DNA of 9,197 nucleotides from Candidatus Babelota bacterium. GTDB lineage: Bacteria; Dependentiae; Babeliae; Babeliales; JABCYS01. Position 1 is the stretch's first letter; each line of letters begins with the position of its first letter. The notes below the pieces were generated by a model that worked only from the letters and a program-made list of their open reading frames with translations, ran no database searches and was not told the DNA's origin. Made by a program: the position numbers and the translations under genes. Of this stretch, positions 1-9,094 are shown one piece after another. Where the stretch lies: the NCBI GenBank assembly GCA_013290085.1, contig JABCYS010000032.1:1-9197 (forward strand), written 5' to 3'.

Positions 1-44
1 AAATTTGCTGCGATGAAGTAAAAAAAATTCATGGCCACGGCCGC

Positions 45-50
45 TATAAT
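45..50 (+). promoter_or_regulatory. -10-like element (TATAAT) upstream of the secreted-protein triplet
   Basis: A perfect TATAAT lies 58 nt before the first ATG of the secreted-protein genes. No TTGACA-like -35 hexamer sits 16-18 nt upstream; that stretch is an A-run (21-27). There is no TGn extension either. A GGCC-AC-GGCC dyad (33-42) fills the space just upstream and could be an operator. The expected transcription start is near 56-58, exactly where the leader stem described next begins. The -10 match is seen directly; promoter activity is inferred. Confidence 0.45.
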
Positions 51-56
51 GTACTA

Positions 57-107
57 CGCTGCTCCTCAAGGTGATTGAGGCTTGTTTGATATTTTGAGGA
101 GTAGTGC
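57..107 (+). promoter_or_regulatory. Structured 5' leader with two mutually exclusive hairpins, one masking the SD
   Basis: Bases 57-69 pair with 94-106 in an uninterrupted 13-bp stem (two G-U pairs), extendable by two more G-U pairs (70-71 with 92-93), with a loop of about 20 nt. The right arm contains the SD (GAGGAG, 96-101) and ends one base before the start codon at 108. An alternative 6-bp hairpin pairs CCTCAA (64-69) with a second TTGAGG copy (75-80) and would free the SD. Both folds use bases 64-69, so they cannot coexist. The base pairing is seen directly. A role as a riboswitch, thermosensor or protein-controlled switch is inference, and it matches no known riboswitch class that I recognise. 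Confidence 0.5.
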
Positions 108-494
108 ATGGGCAAAATTAAAATAACAATCTTTTTTCTATCGACCGTCATAAGTTTTTCAGTCGAAGCATTCTATCTTCGTAACAATTCTCAATACACG
201 GTATGTGTTGAAATAGTGCCTATAAACAAAGGAAAAAGAGATGAAGGTGCAAAGGAATATGTGGTATTACCGGCTAAGAGTCACGTTGAATGTGTGAGAG
301 GGCGGCCATCAAAAAACCTTCTTACCTTTGTTTATCTGGATGAAAGTGATTTTCCGGTTTATATGGTTCCCAACATGTTTGTTGAAGAACGTATGAGCGA
401 GAAGGTTGAGGTGATTGATGTCATTATGCCAATGAATAATTTTAATGTTGAAAAGATACGTTCAATCTTTGGAACCAATGCTGTTCGTGTTTAA
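108..494 (+). CDS. Short secreted protein, paralogue 1 of a tandem triplet
   Basis: This 128 aa protein belongs to no family I recognise. It opens with a basic K3-I-K5 start, a hydrophobic core (residues 6-18) and V-E-A21|F, a convincing Sec signal peptide with cleavage after A21. The mature part starts with F-x-x-N-N-S, then alternating hydrophobic residues (about 30-38) and a V-L-P-A motif (53-56), suggesting a small beta-rich domain. Cysteines at 33 and 62 could form a disulphide after export. The N-terminal half aligns with the two following genes, but the C-terminus is shorter and lacks their VPFFWxGAK(I) tail. The start is fixed by GAGGAG at 96-101, six nt before ATG, and this SD can be masked by the leader stem. 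It lies 11 nt upstream of paralogue 2 and is probably co-transcribed with it. Location (periplasm, surface or host) is unknown. Confidence 0.8.
   Translation: MGKIKITIFFLSTVISFSVEAFYLRNNSQYTVCVEIVPINKGKRDEGAKEYVVLPAKSHVECVRGRPSKNLLTFVYLDESDFPVYMVPNMFVEERMSEKVEVIDVIMPMNNFNVEKIRSIFGTNAVRV
114..144 (+). repeat. 31-nt direct repeat in the signal-peptide coding region (copy 1; copy 2 at 512-542)
   Basis: Bases 114-144 and 512-542 are identical over 31 nt, covering codons 3-13 of paralogues 1 and 2. The corresponding segment of paralogue 3 (from about 1004) starts with the same bases but carries several substitutions. Conservation falls sharply after the signal-peptide codons. This is a coding repeat left by tandem duplication, not a mobile element. 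Confidence 0.85.
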
Positions 495-997: not shown

Positions 998-1471
998 ATG
1001 CACAAAATTAAAACAACAATCTTTTTGTTATTGATTTTCCTTAGTTTTCCAGTCGAAGCATTCTTTCTCTGCAATAAATCTCCGTTCGATTTAATAGTGG
1101 AATTTTGGTCGCCAATCAATGCAAAGAATGAATACACAAAAAATGACTTTTTAATGCTACCGGCCAGTCGTATGACAGATATTGTTCCTTACGAAGATTT
1201 TAGGTATCCGCCTTTTTCTAACTACATGCTTAAATTTGTTTGTTTTGATAAGGAGAGAAAAATTGTAGGTGCAACCAGTAGAGTTTTAGTTAAGGATATC
1301 AACGATAATACGTTTCTAGTTTTGTTAGCAGAGCCGCTTGAGATTAGATCTCTTAAGGCAACTCCTCAGATGAATGAGGCAGCCAAAAAACACATTGCAT
1401 TATTGCCACTAACAGCGGTACCGTTCTTTTGGGGCGGCGCGAAAATCCAAAACTCTTACTTTAAAAGTTAA
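998..1471 (+). CDS. Short secreted protein, paralogue 3 of a tandem triplet
   Basis: This 157 aa protein is the third tandem copy. Its signal peptide (residues 1-21, KIKTTIFLLL core, V-E-A21|F) is followed by FFLCNKSPF, then V-E-F-W-S-P (34-39) and a M-L-P-A motif, so the mature start aligns closely with paralogue 2. The C-terminus repeats the L-P-L-T-A-V-P-F-F-W-G-G-A-K-I segment. The central region is more charged and contains isolated hydrophobic strands, compatible with a small beta-sandwich; that fold is a guess from the residue pattern. AAGGGG (985-990) lies seven nt before ATG. The TAA stop overlaps the stop codon of the convergent membrane-protein gene on the other strand. I recognise no enzyme motif. 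An envelope or host-interaction role is plausible but inferred only from export and duplication. Confidence 0.8.
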   Translation: MHKIKTTIFLLLIFLSFPVEAFFLCNKSPFDLIVEFWSPINAKNEYTKNDFLMLPASRMTDIVPYEDFRYPPFSNYMLKFVCFDKERKIVGATSRVLVKDINDNTFLVLLAEPLEIRSLKATPQMNEAAKKHIALLPLTAVPFFWGGAKIQNSYFKS

Positions 1472-9058: not shown

Positions 9059-9094
9059 AAAAAAAAAGCCCCGTTGTCGCTAACGGGGTGTTTT
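9059..9094. terminator. Bidirectional intrinsic terminator after cysS
   Basis: CCCCGTT (9069-9075) pairs with AACGGGG (9082-9088), a 7-bp GC-rich stem with a six-base loop that starts 14 nt after the cysS stop codon. On the plus strand TGTTTT follows; on the minus strand the stem is followed by a run of nine U (A-run 9059-9067). It should therefore stop transcription in both directions, as expected between convergent genes. Confidence 0.85.

Follow-up and report, generated by a model that had tools for sequence, protein, structure and literature searches.

The window (the whole stretch of 9,197 nucleotides analysed here, from a Candidatus Babelota bacterium) holds nine genes. These genes, and the features of the leader that precedes the first of them (gene 1), are as follows.

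31 to 78, plus strand: possible 15-codon leader ORF MATAAIMYYAAPQGD, overlapping the left arm of the hairpin; low confidence (ORF reading, codon score)
45 to 50, plus strand: TATAAT, candidate -10 element (sequence)
57 to 69, plus strand: left arm of the hairpin, complementary to the Shine-Dalgarno sequence (anti-SD), pairing extendable to 73 (sequence and folding)
64 to 80, plus strand: alternative hairpin 64-69/75-80, -6.8 kcal/mol (folding)
75 to 80, plus strand: decoy TTGAGG copy (sequence)
94 to 106, plus strand: right arm of the hairpin, with the SD inside it at 96-101 (sequence and folding)
96 to 101, plus strand: GAGGAG, Shine-Dalgarno sequence (SD) of gene 1 (sequence; paralogue alignment)
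108 to 494, plus strand: gene 1, a predicted secreted paralogue of 128 aa whose start is predicted to be masked (ORF; paralogue alignment)
108 to 494, 506 to 967 and 998 to 1471, plus strand: three tandem short paralogues with signal-peptide-like starts (genes 1, 2 and 3)
after the paralogues, other strand: DUF6629 protein, DeoC/LacD-type aldolase and penicillin-binding protein with a transpeptidase domain
further on, other strand: short FtsL/DivIC-like protein (weak matches), then a BamA-like protein
last gene of the window: cysteinyl-tRNA synthetase

The signal-peptide DNA of the three paralogues is very similar, and their mature parts have diverged. At the upstream end of the window (1-78), frame 1 reads KFAAMK and meets a TAA at 19-21, where an upstream gene may end, and then runs from ATG 31 to TGA 78; frame 3 is open to 72-74 and scores as non-coding (-5.6 bits). 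At the other end, a terminator-like hairpin listed on both strands (9068-9089) lies directly 3' of the cysteinyl-tRNA synthetase gene.

The protein that we take to be BamA-like matches two loci (44% and 39% identical), one in a bacterial MAG and one in a Candidatus Dependentiae MAG. Judged by eye from the translations, both adjoin a cysS-like gene, and the first likewise has FtsL-, FtsI- and aldolase-like genes in conserved order. The three-gene paralogue operon is absent from both loci, and a profile of the paralogues had no match in the two genomes, an empty result without evidential value. On the strength of these two loci the window is assigned to Dependentiae. Among 101 genomes of the phylum, the aldolase has matches in 67 (at most 60% identity) and the DUF6629 protein in 46, in both cases distant kin only.

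An inverted repeat over the Shine-Dalgarno sequence of gene 1

The earlier note on this DNA had described a stem of 13 pairs, two of them G-U, between 57-69 and 94-106, with the ribosome binding site GAGGAG in its right arm. Both descriptions are confirmed. Bases 57-69 (CGCTGCTCCTCAA) pair with 94-106 (TTGAGGAGTAGTG) over 13 consecutive positions including two G-U pairs, in excess over chance in shuffles, and the run grows to 17 (57-73 with 90-106) if three extra G-U pairs and one U-A pair are counted. GAGGAG at 96-101 lies 6 nt 5' of ATG 108, and the latter is backed as the start of gene 1 by an alignment of the three paralogues that begins ATG-NNN-AAAATTAAAA. The fold of 56-112 reaches -25.3 kcal/mol (z -5.12) and that of 52-125 reaches -25.6 kcal/mol (z -4.35), with none of 200 shuffles as low in either case. 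The gene 1 leader is the lowest-energy 60-nt fold of the window in step-2 frames on both strands, and in a window scan 74-nt frames as low as this leader make up 0.5% on the plus and 0.1% on the minus strand. The inverted repeat over the gene 1 SD is real and statistically unusual.

The cost of opening the SD through the start, a measure of accessibility rather than a model of translation rate, amounts to 19.0 kcal/mol in gene 1, against 5.1 in gene 2 and 6.2 in gene 3, and ranges from 2.2 to 7.7 kcal/mol in five other measured genes of the window. The claim that the downstream paralogues lack a comparable stem is thus borne out. The stem of gene 1 is of the SD-sequestering sort: the SD pairs with an upstream partner, and an opening cost of 18-19 kcal/mol for transcripts starting at 50-56 would be strong enough to compete with the ribosome. 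An 11-pair run also covers the gene 3 SD, but it is weak. We also observe an imperfect palindrome over the gene 3 SD at 976-1009 (AGGGGTATACCT), far weaker than the gene 1 stem.

As a background we used 100 stretches (2.0 Mb, 26 Dependentiae genomes), mostly long contigs and not randomly chosen, with 1629 genes called by script as ORFs of at least 100 codons whose starts were picked by SD score, some of which will be wrong; 1081 of them are SD-bearing (SD score of at least 3). When only upstream pairing and the first few coding bases are costed, gene 1 (18.98) ranks above every one of the 1081 SD-bearing genes, whose maximum is 16.3. A single gene among the 1629 lies above it (L134:6259), and that one looks like a terminator ahead of a misplaced start. 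Once 60 coding bases are counted as well, 19 kcal/mol is reached by four of the 1081 SD-bearing genes, by five of all 1629, and by three of the 332 SD-bearing genes whose local GC is similar. The median of SD-bearing background genes is 5.6. Shuffling the dinucleotides of 48-93 with the SD and start held fixed reproduced the observed opening cost in 18 of 10,000 sequences. In a first run over 40 of these stretches, an unbroken run of at least 13 pairs over the SD (G-U allowed) was found in 3 of 652 genes, one of which has 17 pairs like gene 1, yet an opening cost of only 11.0. We infer that a leader of the gene 1 type occurs in about one gene per thousand, so that a single case would be unsurprising in a genome with roughly a thousand genes.

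A masking of the SDs of secreted genes throughout the phylum was considered and rejected, as upstream pairing is lower in secreted-looking genes than in others (medians 3.2 vs 4.1, P 2e-6). With coding sequence included, the medians are 5.5 vs 5.7 (P 0.04).

Relatives and comparable stems

A protein search in which 559 candidates were scored returned only the three paralogues of the window at E <= 0.01; because the search relies on shared words of five residues, distant relatives may have escaped it. A profile of the paralogues gave nothing convincing in 101 genomes of the phylum, where eight places in seven genomes reached E <= 0.1 (best 0.006) and four of the eight have stops inside them. 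Two of the weak profile matches (E 0.006 and 0.02) are similar, adjacent stretches of one contig (L003 and L010; genome G096, contig C12) with stop-interrupted, FFLCNKS-like translations. A marginal match (E 0.0275) falls on a 566-codon ORF that runs to the end of its locus and is repetitive in its later part (L007, 1480-3177); the N-terminus of this ORF, LPAGGMTNIAS, resembles LPAGGLTTIRS of gene 2. None of seven stretches of viral contigs is a relative of the paralogues.

At the DNA level, the leader region (1-175 of the window) has a match at E <= 1 in 99 of the 101 genomes. Among the matches listed all are short, the best (27 bases, E 1.9e-4) falls within the coding part, and none spans both arms as a repeated element would. 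A covariance model built from the single leader gave hits at E <= 1 in three of the 101 genomes under stricter filters (best 0.106). The pattern CTCCTCA..TGAGGAG..ATG likewise occurs in three of the 101 genomes, against one for a reversed control. One of these sites (L072, 597-552, minus strand) is an SD hairpin of CTCCTCA and TGAGGAG before a predicted signal-peptide ORF, weaker than that of gene 1 (-12.1 kcal/mol, z -3.9). The second (L071) lies inside a longer ORF, and the third (L073) between two genes of the other strand, with the next start some 36 bases further on. At L073 the inverted repeat (807-848, CTCCTCACCACGA/TCGTGGTGAGGAG read on the minus strand) has 13 pairs, and both genes beside it are on the plus strand. 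In these searches neither the leader nor its proteins yielded a homologue.

Among the background genes with an SD, the strongest upstream stem (L145:9939, 9880-9945, genome G047) stands before a signal-peptide-like protein and has a counterpart (L178, 1511-1578) with similar neighbouring genes in G050, the closest related genome found. The stem is not kept there: the leaders are 88-89% identical, the left arm has changed without compensation, and the fold drops from -19.3 kcal/mol (z -2.4) in G047 to -10.7 (z 0.1) in G050. This one case shows that strong SD stems need not be kept in relatives.

Folding of the leader and the start of transcription

The earlier note had interpreted the leader as a translational ON/OFF switch, in which the decoy TTGAGG copy at 75-80 rivals the SD copy for the same strand. 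The two hairpins are indeed mutually exclusive, but they are not balanced (-25.3 vs -6.8 kcal/mol). When the SD and start are forced open in 57-125, hairpin 64-69/75-80 is the sole structure that remains, at -6.8 kcal/mol. The check by co-transcriptional and thermodynamic folding that the note had proposed was run and lends the switch no support: in a minimum-energy walk along the growing chain from 56, taken at every third base, the best fold at 81 through 96 is the decoy hairpin and from 99 on it is the long stem, which takes over once its right arm is made. The mask would form before initiation, because a ribosome would need bases past the start codon. The switch therefore finds no support, with a decoy hairpin about 18 kcal/mol weaker and displaced between 96 and 99, an SD paired from 10 to 60 C and no Rfam family. 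The modelling gives no support to a balanced ON/OFF switch and does support a brake that would be OFF by default.

Several known classes of regulatory leader were likewise considered and rejected. An RNA thermometer shares with this leader an SD within a stem, and differs in that no melting is seen here up to 60 C. The mean unpaired probability of 96-101 ranges from 1.5e-5 at 10 C to 8e-4 at 60 C (1.2e-4 at 37 C, 1.7e-4 at 42 C), so that in the model the SD is more than 99.9% paired even at 60 C. A translational riboswitch would resemble the leader in having two exclusive hairpins that share one strand, one of them over the SD. By contrast, the leader here measures only about 50 nt, has no aptamer of a known class (the whole window gave no Rfam match at gathering thresholds) and separates its two folds by about 18 kcal/mol. 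An intrinsic terminator or attenuator is contradicted by the main stem, which runs into CATGGGC without a T run. Hairpin 64-80 is listed as terminator-like, with a poor tail (CTTGTTTGAT), and the window has nine terminator-like sites in all, against 9.5 in shuffles.

The strength of the mask depends on where the transcript begins. From TATAAT at 45-50 the predicted start falls near 57, where the stem has its foot. This bears out the placement of the stem at the predicted transcription start, though no -35 element is recognisable (22-27 reads AAAAAA). A scan for consensus promoters listed none at TATAAT 45-50. A TATAAT at -75 to -46 is found in only 34 of 1075 background genes, and this rarity mildly favours a real promoter. 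The opening cost falls from 19.4 kcal/mol for a start at 50 to 18.3 at 56, 16.7 at 58, 13.2 at 60 and 10.1 at 62, and is 7.1 from 64 to 72. In the model, a start a few bases further downstream would remove most of the brake.

Interpretation and comparison with known systems

The explanation that we favour, tentatively, is a 5'-terminal, SD-masking hairpin which, given a transcription start near 56-60, would brake gene 1 by default. Initiation drops strongly when a start site carries several kcal/mol of excess structure, and judged by the modelled stem the hairpin probably keeps the translation of gene 1 low. In a transcript from about 56-60, the first 13-17 bases would fold onto the gene 1 SD once the latter is made. 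Gene 1 would be poorly translated by default and genes 2 and 3, with open SDs, would be translated independently, the fixed brake setting the ratio among the three paralogues. Relief, if any, might come from 5' trimming, from a start at about 64 or later, from a ribosome arriving from upstream, or from an RNA or protein partner. Pairing and energies are computed here; where transcription starts, that the stem acts as a brake and how it might be relieved are what we infer. Points against the brake are the lack of a -35 element and of homologues in the searches above, the few background genes that match gene 1 in opening cost with coding bases counted or in length of unbroken pairing, and the background stem of G047 that is not kept in G050. 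One can also conceive of a conditional gate in this little-studied phylum of parasites. Here the 5' end of an effector-like Dependentiae mRNA would lock its own SD, and one of the three secreted paralogues would be produced only at a particular stage, when the lock is released by an RNA acting in trans, by a protein or by a ribosome on the leader ORF; in our judgement this is improbable.

A static SD mask being the likeliest mechanism, its main rival is an incidental inverted repeat, which would have arisen by chance or through a template-switch event in replication, would be under no selection and would lower gene 1 passively at most. We regard this as rather unlikely and as the reading to be weighed most seriously against the mask. 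Chance is non-negligible, given the 18 of 10,000 shuffles and the one background gene in 1629 that lies higher, and the feature was selected as the most striking one in 9 kb. The G047 stem, not kept in G050 although the leaders are 88-89% identical, fits an incidental origin, as does the finding that the secreted-looking genes of the phylum have no preference for upstream SD pairing (medians 3.2 vs 4.1). However, gene 1 tops the 1081 SD-bearing genes on upstream pairing, and the foot of its stem coincides with the predicted transcript start. If incidental, the repeat is a caution that SD hairpins this strong occur at about one gene per thousand. If the brake is real, the leader provides a compact case of leader folding that sets the output ratio of a paralogue operon. 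We found no literature that treats Dependentiae together with riboswitches, and the RNA-level regulation of the phylum is little explored.

The remaining readings concern which transcripts carry the left arm and what reaches it. It is possible that the native transcript starts in or after the left arm and escapes, so that the hairpin silences only read-through from upstream, as in the fold-back inhibition of IS10, where a 5'-side inverted repeat masks the SD only in transcripts begun upstream. The costs of 10.1 at a start of 62 and 7.1 from 64, near the SD-bearing median of 5.6, and an upstream gene that may end at 19-21 agree with this reading. The sole clear -10-like hexamer near the gene nevertheless predicts a start at about 57 rather than at 64 or later, and unlike in IS10 no insertion sequence is recognised among the genes of the window and the -10 places the start at the stem foot. 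We consider escape very improbable. Control by the leader ORF, in the manner of toiL-topAI and ermC, would have a ribosome on 31-78 sit over the left arm and thereby release the SD. This reading draws on the overlap of the ORF with the left arm, on its stop inside the decoy and on its codon score of 4.9 bits, a value attained by 38% of real open windows and 4.7% of off-frame ones. A ribosome over 49-76 cuts the opening cost to 6.2 kcal/mol; the cost is still 12.6 with a ribosome at the stop codon of the ORF (61-88), 10.7 with one over 34-61 and 18.7 with one over 16-43. Moreover, ATG 31 has no SD, leader ORFs of this kind are common (214 of 1075 background genes), and transcripts from TATAAT 45-50 lack the start of the ORF, which needs a transcription start upstream of 31. 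We consider such control very improbable. Least probable of all is that the repeat serves as a DNA operator or as an mRNA-protecting 5' stem with SD masking as a side effect; its position directly downstream of the -10 would suit the former, and 5'-terminal stems can stabilise mRNAs.

Returning to the SD mask, the leader would by its anatomy belong with the SD-sequestering leader hairpins, an already known kind. It resembles toiL-topAI and ermC (PMC12121999) in having a gene's SD paired to a stretch upstream of it, together with a small ORF that runs over the pairing strand; it differs from them in that the ORF of the window lacks an SD, encodes no known stalling peptide and is of a common sort (214 of 1075). 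In aapA3, a type I toxin mRNA of Helicobacter pylori, an anti-SD upstream of the SD traps the latter co-transcriptionally and blocks translation, and the hairpins are reported to be transient steps (PMC6733600) towards a long-distance lock between the 5' and 3' ends, with an antisense RNA and 3' processing. The gene 1 leader likewise has an upstream anti-SD able to trap the SD in a hairpin during transcription. In contrast to aapA3, it has one very stable local stem, placed before a predicted secreted protein of 128 aa.
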